27,166 nt of DNA from a virus: positions 1-27,166 of IMG/VR virus record IMGVR_UViG_3300035681_000109; one strand, given 5' to 3'. The translations under genes and the position numbers were made by a program. Under the pieces are notes generated by a model that was not told where the DNA came from, did no database searches, and saw only the letters and a program-made list of their open reading frames with translations. This document shows positions 15,451-27,166 of this stretch, piece after piece; position 1 is the first letter of the stretch, and each line of letters opens with the position of its first letter.

Positions 15451-16980
15451 TCAATGTCCCATCCATCCTGAAGAGGCTGCGTTGCCACCATAGGTCATGC
15501 GCGGTCGATTGTCCACTGGCCTTGCCTCGCGGTGCGCCACCGGATACGCGAACGTCACGGCGATAGCGTCGGCGGCGTCGGGGCTGGCCAGCCCGCGCGC
15601 CTTCATGTCCTTCTTGCTCTCTAGGAATATCGTCCCCTTTGAGTCCGGCTTCATCATTGGGCCGGTCAGGTCGCTCTTGAGGAAACGGTCGTTGGGGATG
15701 CTGGCCGTCTTCAGCCACTCCCGCATGGCGTGCCACATCTCGGCGCGCTTGTTCCCGAACATGACGGGCTTCGTTGAGCGCATACCGAAGTTCACGCCTC
15801 TGATCTTATACCGTTGCTCCTTCAGCCGGTCGACCACGCCCGCACCTAGTCCGCCCTCGTCGATCACGACGAGTTGGGGCCTGAACTCCTCGATGATGTC
15901 GATGACCCTGCCCACCACCTCCATCGTGTCGTCGCCCCGGTAGCGGCGTATGCCGATGATGTCACGGCCCTGCCGGATAGCGATGACGGTAGCGTCAGCC
16001 CCGAACCGCGCCGGGTCCACGCCCACGATTATCGGAGCCGTCTGGTCCTTCTGTGGTGGCCGTGTCTGCGCGTCCATGACCAGTGATGACGGTATGAACT
16101 GGTCATCCGATGCGTTCGGGAACGCGCCGTAGACCTCGACGTGGGCTTGGCTTGAGTCAGGTCCGTATTCGTCGATGATTTGCTGATAAACGGCCTTATC
16201 AGTTCCCTCCACGCTTCTGGCGTCAACAACCTTGTTTCGCCAGAACTCGCGCTTGCTGTTGAAGCACTCGTAGAAATATCCGCTGTTACGGCGGGGGTTG
16301 CTGAAAGCAAGCCAAAAACGATTAGGAGTGTTCTCTGTAAAGAAGCCACTGGCCACCGCCCAGATAGAGTCATCAATACCGCTCGCCTCGTCGAACACGA
16401 GCATGACGCCCGCGAAGTTATGCACGCCCGCGTAGCTGTCAGGGTTCTCAGCCGACCACAGCCGCCCCTCTACGCCCCAGTAGCGCGTGCCCAGCTTCAG
16501 ATCGCGTTCGACCAGCTCCGCGATCCACTTGGCCGGCAGCACTCGCGTTGCGGACACCTCGAACCAGTGGGTGTTAAGGCTCATTGATAGCCACTTGGTG
16601 ATCTCGGCCCAGGTGACGCTGCGGAGCTGCGCCTCTGAGTTGGCTGACACGATGGTCGTCGAGCCTATGCGGGTTGTCAGCATCCAGATCACGAGCCAGC
16701 TAACGAGGGCCGACTTACCGATACCGCGACCCGATGAGGTGGCCATACGGAAGGTTTCGTAATCTACCTTGCCGCCGTTCTCGCGGATGTGATCGCGCAG
16801 GTCCATCAGCACCTGCAACTGCCACTGACGCGGGCCTGTGAAGCCCTCCAGCGGCGTGCCGGCCTTACCCCACGGGAACGCCATCCTCACGAACGCGACC
16901 GGATCGTTCTTCACCTGCGCCGACCATAGCGTCGCCATCAGCTTCTGTTCTTCGTCCGCGCTATAAATCGGAACTTGCAT
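15451..16980 (-). CDS. terL: Terminase large subunit (packaging ATPase-nuclease)
   Basis: A 509-aa protein. The ATPase domain has a Walker A variant SGRGIGKS (83-90) and Walker B VMLVFDEAS (192-200, with D197-E198), then a probable coupling motif in FWLAFSNPRR (222-231). The C-terminal RNase H-like nuclease has GVDPARFGADATVIA (D322), VVIDEGGLGAGVVDRL (D374) and SPDAADAIA (D468/D471), the usual three-acid arrangement. It cuts concatemers and pumps DNA through the portal. It overlaps the upstream stop by TAATG at 16980. Unusually, an unknown gene separates it from the small subunit. Headful versus cohesive-end packaging cannot be told from sequence alone. Confidence 0.93.
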   Translation of the reverse strand: MQVPIYSADEEQKLMATLWSAQVKNDPVAFVRMAFPWGKAGTPLEGFTGPRQWQLQVLMDLRDHIRENGGKVDYETFRMATSSGRGIGKSALVSWLVIWMLTTRIGSTTIVSANSEAQLRSVTWAEITKWLSMSLNTHWFEVSATRVLPAKWIAELVERDLKLGTRYWGVEGRLWSAENPDSYAGVHNFAGVMLVFDEASGIDDSIWAVASGFFTENTPNRFWLAFSNPRRNSGYFYECFNSKREFWRNKVVDARSVEGTDKAVYQQIIDEYGPDSSQAHVEVYGAFPNASDDQFIPSSLVMDAQTRPPQKDQTAPIIVGVDPARFGADATVIAIRQGRDIIGIRRYRGDDTMEVVGRVIDIIEEFRPQLVVIDEGGLGAGVVDRLKEQRYKIRGVNFGMRSTKPVMFGNKRAEMWHAMREWLKTASIPNDRFLKSDLTGPMMKPDSKGTIFLESKKDMKARGLASPDAADAIAVTFAYPVAHREARPVDNRPRMTYGGNAASSGWMGH

Positions 16981-18087: not shown

Positions 18088-18264
18088 CAGACCCTTCGTA
18101 TTTTTTAAAGGAGATCCTTCGGCCCAGCCCCCGCCCTGTTTACATACCTGATACGTTATAACATTACGTTTACAATTATGAATGTACAATTAAAGTATTG
18201 CGTTAAGTTTACATACAATGGCTGCGCTTATGCTTTATACAGTTTATACTATTTGCCAGCAAGT

Positions 18265-18300
18265 CGGGATCGGGATCGGGATCGGGATCGGGATCGGGAT
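18265..18300 (+). repeat. Six tandem copies of the hexamer CGGGAT
   Basis: Six perfect contiguous CGGGAT units (36 bp) followed by CC, so every unit junction forms a GATC. It is the only perfect short tandem repeat of this size noticed in the window. A simple-sequence tract in non-coding DNA may be a protein-binding array or a slippage-prone spacer. Frames crossing it give Asp-Arg or Asp-Pro dipeptide repeats and are not genes. Confidence 0.95.
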
Positions 18301-18340
18301 CCTGGCTTGCGCTTGGGTGCAGCGGCGTCGGGGCGAGGCG

Positions 18341-18549: not shown

Positions 18550-18577
18550 TTGCCACTATCCACAATCGGCCTATAAA
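18550..18577 (+). promoter_or_regulatory. Sigma70-like early promoter
   Basis: A -35 element TTGCCA (18550-18555), 16-bp spacer and -10 TATAAA (18572-18577) each match the sigma70 consensus at 5 of 6 positions. It points into the early operon, with the first ATG at 18606, predicting a very short leader. The spacer holds a DnaA-box-like CTATCCACA (18556-18564). Confidence 0.6.
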
Positions 18578-18590
18578 TAACATATCCACA
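18556..18590 (+). promoter_or_regulatory. Two DnaA-box-like sites in and after the early promoter
   Basis: CTATCCACA (18556-18564) and ATATCCACA (18582-18590) each differ from the DnaA box TTATCCACA only at the first base. The first lies between -35 and -10, the second at the expected transcription start. A third copy (18895-18903) precedes the second early gene. A protein bound here would compete with RNA polymerase. Candidate binders are host DnaA or the phage DnaA domain IV-like protein at 20361. Confidence 0.55.
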
Positions 18591-18605
18591 GCAAAGGAGA
18601 CGAAC

Positions 18606-18893
18606 ATGCGACTAACAATCTGCAAAGACTACAACGGACACAAAGACGCGCTGTTTATGATGCGCGACGATGACACGCGCAGCGGTTATGAGACGGCGAC
18701 ACGCGGCAAGTATGCGCGCGGCGTGCTGACAACCGATGACGGGCTAACCTATAAGGTCCACGCTGATTGGAGCGTGAGCGCAATCGAGACGGACGCGTTC
18801 AAGTGTTACGTTGTCAACGCCGCGCGGCTATCGCCGGCCAAGCGCAACGCCGCGCAACGCGCCGCTCTAATCGCCGCCCGCGCGTTAGTATAA
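18606..18893 (+). CDS. First early-operon protein, unknown
   Basis: A 95-aa basic protein (RLTICKDYNGHKDALFMMRD; YARGVLTTDDGLTYKVHADW; C-terminal RLSPAKRNAAQRAALIAARA helix). It has an excellent ribosome binding site (AAAGGAG, 6 nt before ATG). No family is recognised. The N-terminal half looks beta-rich and the C-terminal a positively charged amphipathic helix. Being first after the early promoter, it is a candidate host-takeover or regulatory protein, but nothing in the sequence proves this. Confidence 0.75.
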   Translation: MRLTICKDYNGHKDALFMMRDDDTRSGYETATRGKYARGVLTTDDGLTYKVHADWSVSAIETDAFKCYVVNAARLSPAKRNAAQRAALIAARALV

Positions 18894-18903
18894 CATATCC
18901 ACA
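18891..18903 (+). repeat. 13-bp direct repeat ahead of second early gene (copy of 18578-18590)
   Basis: TAACATATCCACA occurs identically at 18578-18590 and 18891-18903, each just upstream of a ribosome binding site (GCAAAGGAG and CAGGAG). It contains the DnaA-box-like core TATCCACA. Its first TAA is also the in-frame stop of the first early gene. It may be an operator, or a 5'-UTR element shared by the two messages. Confidence 0.85.
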
Positions 18904-18917
18904 CAGGAGCCAAGACA

Positions 18918-19394
18918 ATGGAAACCGCAGCAGACATTAAACAATGGGCAACCGAACAATGGAACGGTCGCCTGTTACATTCCGGCCATCGTAACGTGTT
19001 CACACAAGGCGCGGGCGGTATTGCCACGAAAGCGGGCGGCAACGTCACCTATAAGTCGAAAGAACAAAAAGCCTATGAAGCGCGGTTTGGCGTCTATAAC
19101 AAAAAGCTGGTGCCCGTCATCTTGGCCGAAGCGACACGCGACGATAGCGGCGAGCTGCCGCACTACACATGGCCTAAGACAGAAACGCCGGCCAAGATAG
19201 CGCCAGCAATACCGCGCAAGCGCGTTCCTAAAGCAAAACTAGAACAAGCGGCAGCCATTATCGCCAAAGTGCCGCAAGATGAGCTGGCGACGTTCCTTGC
19301 CCGGTTCGGCCTGTCACTGTCGCTCGCCGCGTCAATCGCGTCGCTGGACAATGCCGAACAAATCGCGCGTCAATTTTTGCGGGCTACGTTATGA
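18918..19394 (+). CDS. Early protein, unknown (158 aa)
   Basis: A 158-aa protein with an ACAGGAG ribosome binding site. The N-terminal half has TAADIKQWATEQWNGRLLHS and GNVTYKSKEQKAYEARFGVY. A Pro/Lys-rich linker (about 95-110: PAKIAPAIPRKRVPKAK) leads to a helical C-terminal domain (LEQAAAIIAKVPQDELATFL, SLSLAASIASLDNAEQIARQ). No known family is recognised. The two-domain plan with a basic linker would suit a DNA- or RNA-binding adaptor, which is inference only. Its stop overlaps the next start (ATGA at 19391). Confidence 0.75.
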   Translation: METAADIKQWATEQWNGRLLHSGHRNVFTQGAGGIATKAGGNVTYKSKEQKAYEARFGVYNKKLVPVILAEATRDDSGELPHYTWPKTETPAKIAPAIPRKRVPKAKLEQAAAIIAKVPQDELATFLARFGLSLSLAASIASLDNAEQIARQFLRATL

Positions 19395-20038: not shown

Positions 20039-20190
20039 TGAGCCGTGTCAAGGACTACTTTCAATTTAGCCAGCTCTTACACTGGCTATCCGACGAAGCG
20101 CTTAACATCCTGCTAGAGACAGAGCAGGACGATTACCGCGCCAAGATCATCCAAAACGAGCTGGAGAAGCGCGGCCATGCTCCGGCTTGA
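20038..20190 (+). CDS. Small early protein (50 aa), unknown
   Basis: Hand-translated 50-aa helical, charged protein: SRVKDYFQFSQLLHWLSDEA, LNILLETEQDDYRAKIIQNE, LEKRGHAPA. GGGAGG lies upstream, inside the end of the micropeptide gene, and the start overlaps that gene's stop (TAATG). It overlaps the following gene by 14 nt. No family is recognised. Confidence 0.6.
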   Translation: MSRVKDYFQFSQLLHWLSDEALNILLETEQDDYRAKIIQNELEKRGHAPA

Positions 20191-20422
20191 TCTCGACACC
20201 GAACCCGGCGGGGTCACAACCCGCTGGCGCACCGGGGAGGGGCTATCGCTGCATCGCCGCGACGGCTCCCTTATAATGAAAATCCATGCGCCCTACGCTG
20301 ACGAGCGTTCTGTTGTCACGGCGGCGCACGCCCTCAATTTTATGTTCAAGAGTCTGAAACATGCGAAACGAACTGACGGAAGCGATACAGGATCTGATAG
20401 AGGAGACGGCGCACAAGCATAA
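20177..20422 (+). CDS. Early protein (81 aa), unknown
   Basis: An 81-aa protein. The first 60 residues look folded and beta-rich (LRLDLDTEPGGVTTRWRTGE; GLSLHRRDGSLIMKIHAPYA), followed by a helix (SVVTAAHALNFMFKSLKHAK). The last about 20 residues (Asp/Gly-rich) overlap the start of the DnaA domain IV-like gene in another frame and are probably unconstrained. GGAGAAG precedes the ATG. Function unknown. Confidence 0.6.
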   Translation: MLRLDLDTEPGGVTTRWRTGEGLSLHRRDGSLIMKIHAPYADERSVVTAAHALNFMFKSLKHAKRTDGSDTGSDRGDGAQA

Positions 20423-20603
20423 CATCTCCACCGACCTGCTAATCGGCCATAACCGCCATCCGAGGGCCATATGGCCCCGATTTGAGGTGATGTGGCGCGC
20501 ACGGCATGAGCTGAACGCGCCGCTGCAACTAATCGGCCAGGTGCTAGGCGGGCGCGACCATACAACAATAATGCACGGGATCAAACGCTATGAAGAACGA
20601 TAA
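20361..20603 (+). CDS. Stand-alone DnaA domain IV-like DNA-binding protein
   Basis: An 80-aa protein. After a short N-terminal helix (residues 3-20) it has ISTDLLIGHNRHPRAIWPRF (22-41), EVMWRARHELNAPLQLIGQV (42-61) and LGGRDHTTIMHGIKRYEE (62-79). The last block is the DnaA signature (I-G-x-x-x-G-G-R-D-H-T-T-x-x-H), whose Arg-Asp-His-Thr-Thr residues read the DnaA box, and the first part matches the basic loop and helix-turn-helix of DnaA domain IV. The AAA+ and N-terminal domains are absent. It may occupy DnaA boxes at the phage origin or early promoter, or compete with host DnaA (inference). The small DnaA-related HdaB of Caulobacter is a possible analogue. Confidence 0.82.
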   Translation: MRNELTEAIQDLIEETAHKHNISTDLLIGHNRHPRAIWPRFEVMWRARHELNAPLQLIGQVLGGRDHTTIMHGIKRYEER

Positions 20604-20858: not shown

Positions 20859-20886
20859 ACGCCAGTTTCCTCCCAATGGTGACTAG

Positions 20887-20910
20887 GCCGGCGCAAGCCG
20901 GCTTCTTTTT
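20887..20910 (+). terminator. Intrinsic terminator within the early operon
   Basis: GCCGGC, loop GCAA (a GNRA tetraloop), GCCGGC, then TTCTTTTT: a compact rho-independent terminator on the plus strand, 28 nt after the 66-aa gene. No T-tract follows it on the minus strand, so it should stop only rightward transcription. The next gene starts 10 nt later, so that gene needs read-through or antitermination. Confidence 0.88.
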
Positions 20911-20920
20911 AGGCGCTACC

Positions 20921-21351: not shown

Positions 21352-23626
21352 TATCGGTGTCCCTTCCCTCACCCGTGATCCGGGCCAGCTCGCGCCGCAC
21401 GTCCGACCGTGACCAGTCTTTCAAGGCCGGGCGAACAAAGCAATGCTTTTTAGAGCGGTAATCCGCTGAATAGCATAGCCCCTTGTCGATCCACCCGGCT
21501 TCTTTCAGTGCGTGAAATAGCGCCGGCTGCACAACTTTGAACGAGCTGTTGTTAGTGTGCGCATCGTTCATCTCCTTAATTATTTTGTGCCAAGGGCCGG
21601 CGATAACATCGACGTTGAACGGTGCATGGCCGGCTTCGATCTCGTGATAGACATAGCCTTCCGCATTGCTCATGCCGACATAGATTAGCTTCTGCTTGTA
21701 GTCGGTCATGGGCGGTATGCCTTGGGGGCTGAACCGCGACACATCCCGCGCCCGCAGCCACCCTGCGACCGCTTCAAACCCGCCGGCGTTATACCAGCCC
21801 CAGATCCGCTTGGCTTCCTCCGGCGTCATCTTGGCGCTCTCAGACCAGACGCAGAACCAGCGCCGATCGTCACTGTCCAGCGTGATCGGCATGTCCTCGT
21901 TCGTGAACGCCAGCATGAACAGACGATTGACCATCTTGTAGGGGTGCAAGCCCTTACGGTTGATCGTTAGCATCTCCGGCGGAGCGGCGATGATCGGCTT
22001 CAGCTTGTTCGCCAGCGCGCGACGATCCTTCGCCTCCGGCTCTTTCAGCTCGTTAAGGACGACGATCTCAGCCTCAAGCTGATAACCCCACTGGCTTGAC
22101 AGGCTCTCGTTGTCGATCAGCCCCTTGTTCTTCTCGTGCGGTCCGCAGACCGACCAGATGAAAGGAGCCCACATCGTATCCTTGCCGCAGCCGCCCTTGC
22201 CGCCGTGCAGGATAGCGTGGTTGATCTTGACGTTCGCGTGCTGGAGCTTGAACGCCATTACATTCCAGATATGCTCCAGCTCCGCAGCGTCCGGCACAAG
22301 CCGCCGGCAATGGTCGAGCCAAGGCTGCGGATCTCCAGCCTCTTTGACCTCCGGCCTGGCGTCGCGCCAGACGTTGCCATAGACCAGCCCGTCCTTATGA
22401 ACCATCCAGTCTTCGCCAGCGGCGTAGGTTAGACCTTTAAGAGCGTATCCACCCATCGCTTCGCGGTTTTCGTCATACCAGATAGACGCTTCAATACGGC
22501 GCGGTTTTTCGCCAGTTGATTTGCATTCAATGTGCCGAAACACAGCATTAAACGCTTTGCGGCTGATCTCGCTGCATGTCTTTTTATCAAAGTAAGCGTC
22601 GTCATCGACGATATAGGCGAAGCGTTCATGCCAACCGGCGCGGTCTTCACGCCCAGCCTGCTTGCGCTCAACGTCAGCAATAACTTGGCTTGCCCGATCT
22701 GGAAACGCTTTAGTTGGCGTCAATGTGCCAAACTTATCGGATAGTTCGGAAATGAGATCGTCACGCAATCCGGGGATTGTGCGCGGCCCACCCTGTTCCG
22801 CCACCCAATCGCAAAAGAACTTGCTATCAAGATGCTCGCAATGAGCGTGATAGCAACAGAATGAACGATCCTGCGGCTTATATCGCGCTTCAATCTGTCC
22901 ATCTGTATGACCTTCATGGTTCGGGCAGACGACGCCGCACCAGCCCTCTGCGTTTACGCCGGACGTAACAAGGCTGTTCTCGTTCAGCCATGCCAGCACC
23001 GTGTCGTTGCCAGTGTCCTTTACGCGAAACGTAATAGCGCGAGCCGTGCCTGTCTCAGCCGGTGTCACGCCAAGCGCCGCGCAGATCTCCGCTAACGTGA
23101 ACTCACGGTCAGGATGGAACTCCACCTCACGGCACACGAACGCATCGCGCCCCGGCTTGACGTTAACCGAGCCTGGCAGGCGACAGTTACGCACCGCATT
23201 AGTCGCGCCAGGATCTGTGTAGCCAGCTTCAGCAATAGCGGTAAGAGCTGCACAATGTTCCTCCACGGTCGGCTGGTCGCTGTAAGCATACCAGTATTGA
23301 TAATTGCCGGGGCTCGTCTCGACAATAGCGGTGGGCTCTAGCGGCGGAATCTTCGACTTGGTGCCGATGTCGTCCAGCATCATGAACAGGACGTGCGTGC
23401 AGTTCGCCACGCTGGCGGACGGCTTGCCCTGCATACGATCCATAATGAAGCTGCCGGTGTTAAGAAACCAACTCTCGCCTTCCTTGCGCTTGTGCTTTGG
23501 CAGATAAGCCGGCCAAGTGTATTTAGGCGAACCGTCCTTGTGCAGCCGGCCCGTGTCGATCTGTTTGACGATCAGCGCTGTCTCGCCAGCCGGTGCGAGG
23601 CCGATAAAGTAATCGAAAAGTGTCAT
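21329..23626 (-). CDS. Primase-helicase (RepB-like primase domain plus SF3/D5-type helicase)
   Basis: A 765-aa protein from ATG 23626 (GAGG ribosome binding site, ATGA overlap with the upstream gene; a TTG start four codons earlier is less likely). The N-terminal archaeo-eukaryotic-type primase has LFMMLDDIGTK (D85-D86), PTAIVETSPGNYQYWYAY and AVRNCRLPGSVNVKPG (144-159). A Cys/His cluster (C230, C234, then CCYHAHCEH at about 257-265) suggests zinc binding. The C-terminal helicase has Walker A GGKGGCGKDT (475-484), Walker B-like IVVLNELKE (521-529), LFMLAFTNED (569-578) and an arginine-finger region DSDDRRWF (584-591), as in DUF5906/D5-type proteins. It primes and unwinds the phage origin or fork. 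It neighbours the polymerase, so the two likely form the replisome core. Confidence 0.88.
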   Translation of the reverse strand: MTLFDYFIGLAPAGETALIVKQIDTGRLHKDGSPKYTWPAYLPKHKRKEGESWFLNTGSFIMDRMQGKPSASVANCTHVLFMMLDDIGTKSKIPPLEPTAIVETSPGNYQYWYAYSDQPTVEEHCAALTAIAEAGYTDPGATNAVRNCRLPGSVNVKPGRDAFVCREVEFHPDREFTLAEICAALGVTPAETGTARAITFRVKDTGNDTVLAWLNENSLVTSGVNAEGWCGVVCPNHEGHTDGQIEARYKPQDRSFCCYHAHCEHLDSKFFCDWVAEQGGPRTIPGLRDDLISELSDKFGTLTPTKAFPDRASQVIADVERKQAGREDRAGWHERFAYIVDDDAYFDKKTCSEISRKAFNAVFRHIECKSTGEKPRRIEASIWYDENREAMGGYALKGLTYAAGEDWMVHKDGLVYGNVWRDARPEVKEAGDPQPWLDHCRRLVPDAAELEHIWNVMAFKLQHANVKINHAILHGGKGGCGKDTMWAPFIWSVCGPHEKNKGLIDNESLSSQWGYQLEAEIVVLNELKEPEAKDRRALANKLKPIIAAPPEMLTINRKGLHPYKMVNRLFMLAFTNEDMPITLDSDDRRWFCVWSESAKMTPEEAKRIWGWYNAGGFEAVAGWLRARDVSRFSPQGIPPMTDYKQKLIYVGMSNAEGYVYHEIEAGHAPFNVDVIAGPWHKIIKEMNDAHTNNSSFKVVQPALFHALKEAGWIDKGLCYSADYRSKKHCFVRPALKDWSRSDVRRELARITGEGRDTDNVVSIKN

Positions 23627-24348
23627 TTTTCCTCGCAAAATATTCCGCAGTCCACTTGCATGTTTTTGAGCGGTCGGCCCTTTGCGCCTTCCGGCAACTC
23701 ATCAAGGAACATTCGCTTGCCTTTATACCGCACGAGCCTGACGCCGAGTTCACGCGACTGCGCCGCGCGGTTAGCATAGACGTTAGGATACTCTTTACGA
23801 ACTAACGACCAATAAGTCGGTGACGTGGCTTTAACGCATCCTATACAATTAGCGTTCGGAAAGCCTTTGCTATAGATGCGCGGCGGCTGAATGCCAGCAG
23901 CCAGTATTATGTTAAGGCAGTCCTGTTTTGTCAGCCCGGCGTCGATCAACACCGGCAGCACGTTGTCACGCTCTGACAAAACAAAGCGATCAAATCGATT
24001 GCGCTCATCAACCGTAAAGCCTAGCACATGCCAATCGGCTTTATTATCGCGCTCCCATTCTTGACGCGCGCGTTTCTTCAGCTCGACCGTGCAGACGGCT
24101 CCCGTAGGGCCGGACATAAATCCGCGCTTCTGCCATATATCTCGCGCCGAACAAGACGGATATTTGCTGTTAACGGCACGTTCGATTTTAACGCCAAGCC
24201 ATGACTCAACGTCGCGTAAAAATCGCTCATTATCTTCGTCTTCTTCGACAACCGGGTTATTGATGACCCGAACGTCAGAATACTTTTCTAGCGTTAGCTT
24301 CGCGGCGACCGCGCTGGCGGCTCCGCAAGAAAACCAGACGGCTATCAT
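23623..24348 (-). CDS. PAPS-reductase-like PP-loop (adenine nucleotide alpha hydrolase) protein
   Basis: A 241-aa protein. The PP-loop is FSCGAASAVAA (6-16), a Cys variant of the SGGxDS motif that binds ATP for adenylation. Later come GAVCTVELKKRA (C86), VLGFTVDERNRFDRF (108-122), CIGCVKA (168-174) and CGIFC (234-238). The four late Cys residues could hold an iron-sulfur cluster or zinc. Phage members are annotated as phosphoadenosine phosphosulfate reductase family, but they lie among replication genes, and sulfur transfer to nucleic acid (DndC- or tRNA-thiolase-like) is as plausible as sulfate reduction. It is coupled by ATGA on both sides, to polymerase and to primase-helicase. Substrate unknown. 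Confidence 0.8.
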   Translation of the reverse strand: MIAVWFSCGAASAVAAKLTLEKYSDVRVINNPVVEEDEDNERFLRDVESWLGVKIERAVNSKYPSCSARDIWQKRGFMSGPTGAVCTVELKKRARQEWERDNKADWHVLGFTVDERNRFDRFVLSERDNVLPVLIDAGLTKQDCLNIILAAGIQPPRIYSKGFPNANCIGCVKATSPTYWSLVRKEYPNVYANRAAQSRELGVRLVRYKGKRMFLDELPEGAKGRPLKNMQVDCGIFCEEK

Positions 24349-27140: not shown

Positions 27141-27166
27141 TTGCACTTCTGTGGATAGGTTTTGTA

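Follow-up and report, generated by a model that had tools for sequence, protein, structure and literature searches.

In DnaA, domain IV binds DNA through a basic loop and a helix-turn-helix (PMC5835720), and the isolated domain is sufficient for sequence-specific DNA binding (Roth and Messer 1995, as cited in PMC5835720). E. coli DnaA controls its own gene, repressing it by way of a DnaA box located at a promoter (PMC5835720). Stand-alone versions of domain IV are already annotated in phages, an example being gp62 of Sulfitobacter phage phiGT1; this protein and its counterparts in Rhizobium phage RHph_TM3_3_3 and phage ctNMl277 likewise lack an AAA+ initiator and are often encoded in early or replication regions, and Aurantimonas phage AmM-1 encodes a larger stand-alone DnaA C-terminal domain protein. 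A leader arrangement of interest here is that of the start-associated sequences of cluster K mycobacteriophages (SAS/ESAS), in which a short asymmetric motif stands in one orientation just ahead of many different gene starts, frequently preceded by an inverted repeat (PMC3203893). In the searchable literature, mostly excluding subscription journals, we found neither a study of a phage stand-alone DnaA domain IV, or a role for one, nor such a protein paired with a conserved set of DnaA-box operators in phage early promoters.

The locus described here comes from an uncultivated freshwater phage represented by a virus record of 27,166 bases, the whole of which was analysed and is referred to as the window. 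The initial annotation had proposed a stand-alone DnaA domain IV without an AAA+ domain at 20361-20603, to be checked by an HMM search against Bac_DnaA_C and by structure prediction, and both analyses bore this out. The 80-residue open-reading frame was confirmed on the plus strand, and its product matched Pfam Bac_DnaA_C (PF08299) with an E-value of 7.3e-15 and a score of 55.2 bits against a cut-off of 31.5, the alignment covering residues 9-76 of the product and positions 1-68 of the 69 in the model. No further domain was found by the Pfam search, AAA+ ATPase domain III being absent, and the NCBIfam DnaA models aligned by their C-terminal part alone, with 49 bits for full-length DnaA compared to the equivalog cut-off of 343.9. 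The top sequence matches in the PDB were DnaA domain IV or whole DnaA chains (1j1v, 8btg, 2hcb, 1l8q), and every PDB match with an E-value below 0.01 was a DnaA. An AlphaFold2 model made with 57 relatives as input had a mean pLDDT of 95.9 and five helices, included the basic loop and helix-turn-helix fold of domain IV, and was superimposed by Foldseek on the DNA-bound E. coli domain IV 1j1v at 0.8 Å with a TM of 0.86.

20361..20603 (+): stand-alone DnaA domain IV gene, 80 aa (PF08299, AlphaFold2, Foldseek, residue mapping)
Product residues 2-19, 24-28, 34-51, 55-61 and 67-78: predicted helices (AlphaFold2)
Product residues D66-H67-T68-T69: recognition helix region (residue mapping)

The 1J1V work reportedly established which residues of E. 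coli DnaA domain IV touch DNA. In the phage product, the positions aligned to E. coli R399, R407, D433, H434, T435 and T436 are R, R, D, H, T and T, with R399 corresponding to R32 and D433/H434/T435/T436 to D66/H67/T68/T69, and R40, H67 and T69 of the product are invariant among 58 phage and cellular sequences. The fold (0.8-0.9 Å) and the main DNA-contact residues are thus common to the phage product and cellular domain IV (E. coli 1J1V; M. tuberculosis 3PVP), whereas the phage product differs from cellular DnaA in being a free protein of 80 residues without domains I-III and without an ATPase, and in its substitutions at Q408 (to F) and P423 (to Q). The product is a complete, bare DnaA domain IV. 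Relatives 59-100% identical to it are encoded at 46 IMG/VR loci among viral contigs. A search of genome contigs returned relatives of at most 44% identity from many phyla, which indicate no host for the phage; those examined resemble ordinary DnaA domain IV. PADLOC gave no match, and phrog_34198, which carries no function, matched weakly.

Structural genes occupy the minus strand of the window up to ~18.2 kb, and a run of small genes on the plus strand begins at 18606. Between these divergent late and early operons lies an intergenic, perfect tandem repeat of TCGGGA (6.3 copies, 18264-18301). Beyond the small-gene run, the minus strand encodes a primase-helicase-like protein (RepB_primase and DUF5906), a PAPS-reductase-like protein and a family A DNA polymerase (PolA); the PAPS-reductase-like gene (23623-24348, minus strand; phrog_424, 7.6e-44) sits between the primase and DNA polymerase genes. 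The closest annotated phage by DNA is ctNMl277 (Manatee Spring), which has a 'dnaa protein helix-turn-helix', 28% identical, at the matching place. No integrase was found among 15 related records of 29-47 kb. The early promoter and the operon that contains the DnaA domain IV gene have the following features.

18550..18555 (+): -35-like TTGCCA of the early promoter, from sequence; TTGACA or TTGACG in most relatives
18557..18564 (+): box A, TATCCACA, within the -35/-10 spacer
18572..18577 (+): -10-like TATAAA, 16 nt past TTGCCA, from sequence
18578..18590 (+): box B1, TAACATATCCACA, at the expected transcription start, 26 bp past box A
18594..18599 (+): Shine-Dalgarno AAGGAG of early gene 1, from sequence
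18606..18893 (+): early gene 1, 95 aa, without a family match
18891..18903 (+): box B2, TAACATATCCACA, immediately 5′ of the gene 2 Shine-Dalgarno
18905..18909 (+): Shine-Dalgarno AGGAG of early gene 2, from sequence
18918..19394 (+): early gene 2, 158 aa, without a Pfam or PHROGs match
20177..20422 (+): 81-aa open-reading frame of the same-strand run, in another frame, with a 62-nt overlap with the start of the DnaA domain IV gene
20885..20911 (+): terminator-like hairpin (AGGCCGGCGCAAGCCGGCTT CTTTTT) downstream of the DnaA domain IV gene

The initial annotation had also described the operon promoter as containing DnaA-box-like sites, and this held: TATCCACA starts at 18557, 18583 and 18896 on the plus strand. 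With one more at 27150 on the minus strand, the 27-kb window contains 4 copies compared to 0.50 expected, and none of 100 shuffles reached 4. The full 9-mer TTATCCACA is not present at the window sites, where the first base is C or A. The fourth copy (27150-27157) lies near the window end and outside the early operon, and may be due to chance or belong to a promoter cut by the contig end. The early promoter was missed by a consensus promoter scanner, since the scanner wants T at position 6 of the -10 and TATAAA ends in A. The TATCCACA core of box B1 begins 5 nt past TATAAA, where transcription should start, so that the candidate binding sites at 18557 and 18583 overlap the promoter of the DnaA domain IV gene's own operon. 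This placement is the layout expected of operators. The product is probably a single-domain, DnaA-derived transcription regulator that binds TATCCACA, and feedback repression of the early operon is its likeliest role.

The boxes are conserved among the relatives. In 30 gene-bearing lineages, the 3.6 kb upstream of the gene contain TATCCACA 87 times on the coding strand and 3 times on the other strand, compared to a single occurrence in the remaining 202 kb of sequence. Ranked among all 8-mers by the number of loci with at least two copies in these 3.6 kb, TATCCACA comes first (28/31). A Shine-Dalgarno followed by ATG lies within 50 nt of 82 of 89 boxes, compared to 268 of 1550 random positions, and the genes downstream of the boxes represent 22 families, many of them unrelated and a few of them chance matches, which ties the motif to start sites in general and not to a particular gene. 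This distribution bears on the idea that the boxes form a phage replication origin at which the protein helps to start phage replication. DnaA boxes are the usual markers of origins, and a primase-helicase-like protein and PolA are encoded by the phage itself; the boxes, however, are single, lie on one strand, are fixed to -35/-10 elements and to Shine-Dalgarno/ATG pairs, and are spread over up to ~1.5 kb before different genes, the AAA+ domain for DNA opening is absent, and GC skew has no clear switch there. Origin marking, one of the roles offered in the initial annotation, was rejected on this box layout, the sites standing on promoters and leaders and not in an origin-like cluster, and we consider it very improbable.

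Two classes of site can be distinguished. Class A sites adjoin the -35, with TTGACA or TTGACG followed by TATCCACA, while class B sites have the form (G)TAACATATCCACA and stand immediately 5′ of a Shine-Dalgarno and ATG, the first of them 26-27 bp after class A. A -35-like hexamer (at least 4/6) is found 16-18 nt before TAACAT at 19 of 42 single class B sites, compared to 0-6 at other offsets, which suggests that TAACAT may act as a -10 at these sites. A GC stem of at least 6 pairs lies just upstream of 14 of 43 class B sites (1.5% in shuffles), as would the terminator of a preceding gene. Sites that adjoin a Shine-Dalgarno, often after such a hairpin, could instead act as an RNA or core promoter element without any DnaA-type reader, and the phage boxes do share the SAS/ESAS layout (PMC3203893), being asymmetric, in one orientation and just before many unrelated gene starts. 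The phage motif TAACATATCCACA differs, however, from the SAS GGGATAGGAGCCC, which is not a DnaA box and whose reader was not determined in PMC3203893. Box A, moreover, lies upstream of the -10 and outside the transcript of that promoter, yet has the identical 8 bases; these equal the core of the DnaA box, and a fold that binds DnaA boxes is encoded in the operon. To the RNA or core promoter explanation we give the least credence of all.

The association between gene and boxes was examined from two sides. When viral contigs were scanned for the two-box pattern without regard to the protein, 45 were retrieved. Of these, 18 have at least 3.5 kb downstream, and 15 of the 18 encode the protein on the same strand at a distance of 1.7-3.3 kb. 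The remaining three (L180, L185, L188) are unrelated phages with tandem oriC-like boxes; together with the related L173, they were considered as cases of boxes without the gene and rejected as such, their TATCCACA clusters being tandem and oriC-like. In L180 and in L185/L188/L173, 5-7 tandem TATCCACA copies within ~100 bp resemble a host-type DnaA origin or titration site, and no DnaA domain IV gene is present in the available stretch. A single-motif scan of the viral contigs with GTAACATATCCACA gave mostly chance single matches and was set aside in favor of the two-box pattern. A second set of 80 contigs was anchored on the primase, blind to both gene and boxes. In the clade with primase identity of at least 69%, the DnaA domain IV gene is present in each contig whose early region extends over 3.4 kb or more, while in the sister clades of that set (primase at most 60%) there are no close copies of the gene and no class B sites.

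At least one leader site was found in all 22 gene-bearing contigs examined. L314, L317 and the duplicates of L317, at first seemingly without boxes, have drifted boxes, TATACACA and TGTCCACA, at the same leader position. Where the protein has GGRDH[TS]T[IV]MH, 36 of 38 leader sites are TATCCACA; where the helix is changed (MY for MH, or TG for TT, a count that takes in the DHTG variant), 3 of 11 are TATCCACA and the other 8 are TATCAACA, TATACACA or TGTCCACA, the contigs being related, with about one gain and one or two drifts, so that these counts are not independent events. In these counts, the box letters drift together with the recognition helix.

This drift also bears on who reads the boxes. 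The strongest rival explanation is that host DnaA does, tying early expression to the host replication state, with the phage protein competing with or displacing DnaA there and so relieving or re-setting the control. TATCCACA makes up 8 of the 9 DnaA-box bases, a box of this kind mediates the repression of the E. coli dnaA promoters by DnaA (PMC5835720), and the unrelated phages L180, L185 and L188 have tandem TATCCACA clusters with no DnaA domain IV in the stretch. On the other hand, the consensus first T is kept in 8 of 77 boxes (A in 54, C in 10, G in 5), some clade 2 boxes have lost the CACA core (TATCAACA) along with the changes in the recognition helix, and the sister phages that have no close gene copy have no boxes either; we regard a host DnaA reader as rather unlikely. 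A related suggestion, in line with the oriC-blocking role also offered in the initial annotation, is that the protein mainly antagonizes host DnaA: lacking ATPase and oligomerisation domains, it would sit on the oriC boxes and halt host initiation, and the phage boxes would serve feedback only. The ability of domain IV alone to bind DNA sequence-specifically (Roth and Messer 1995, as cited in PMC5835720), the early-operon position of the gene and the missing AAA+ domain would fit such a role, but on its own it leaves the conserved array of phage operators unexplained, and the clade 2 box letters drift away from the host consensus; we find it improbable.

For the feedback repressor that we favor, the following scheme can be drawn. 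The product would be made from the early operon and bind the TATCCACA boxes, of which the early promoter has one in the -35/-10 spacer and one just past the -10, where bound protein should exclude RNA polymerase; repression would be much likelier than activation, because protein in the spacer and over the start point would have this effect. Boxes before the downstream Shine-Dalgarnos would overlap internal -10-like TAACAT elements or serve as roadblocks, and those at later gene starts would in this way widen control to internal promoters or roadblocks. As the product accumulates, it would dampen the early genes, including its own, giving negative feedback and early shut-off. Such feedback would cover the whole early run, since the DnaA domain IV gene lies 1.8 kb downstream of the early promoter on the same strand and the terminator scan found no strong terminator-like site between them. 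Early repression and autoregulation had been offered as a candidate role in the initial annotation, and the conserved promoter and gene-start boxes, the clade-level gene association and the joint drift of box and helix argue in its favor.

Several points count against the repressor. Host DnaA would be expected to recognise TATCCACA-like boxes too, and the association of gene with boxes amounts to little more than one evolutionary gain, the contigs being non-independent. The product has the Q408 and P423 changes, the early-promoter -10 varies among relatives, and for some boxes, placed between promoter and start codon, an RNA role is conceivable. Compared to E. coli dnaA autoregulation, which uses the full initiator, the phage case would use a single domain, two boxes around the -10 and more at downstream gene starts. 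If true, a domain of a replication initiator now serves as a simple repressor, and the early regulon of a phage responds to almost the same sequence word as the host initiator does. More tentatively, this phage clade may have made the DNA-reading domain of DnaA the master regulator of a cassette-built early region, with one DnaA-box-derived operator built into promoter core and leader of exchangeable early genes and a recognition common with host DnaA, timing its own genes with cross-talk with host replication control. The likely targets of a phage DnaA domain IV protein can now be named base by base, making its function directly testable, and a candidate reader is named for a leader motif laid out like the mycobacteriophage start-associated sequences.

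Other phages with stand-alone DnaA domain IV proteins, 22-38% identical to the 80-residue product, differ from this clade in having no clustered TATCCACA in the stretches examined. The word is absent from the stretches read of the DnaA_C phages phiGT1, AmM-1, Mvi-Yong1342-1 and RHph_TM3_3_3, and in L002 (MW202483.1), the nearest annotated phage, whose DnaA domain IV is 28% identical, it is not clustered near the early-gene start. Near that start (~16747-16972), GTTTATGTAA occurs five times in L002, in four cases with an extension to TATGTAAACA. The sister phages L357, L363 and L365, without a close DnaA domain IV, have a clustered repeat, TTGCCCACA / TGTGGGCAA, in both orientations ~4 kb before the primase end, and these early-leader repeats are probably operators of another regulator. 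Besides the DnaA-type boxes, the early leaders of single relatives contain further clustered motifs, GCGGTTTAT in L160 and ATAGTCATAT in L046.
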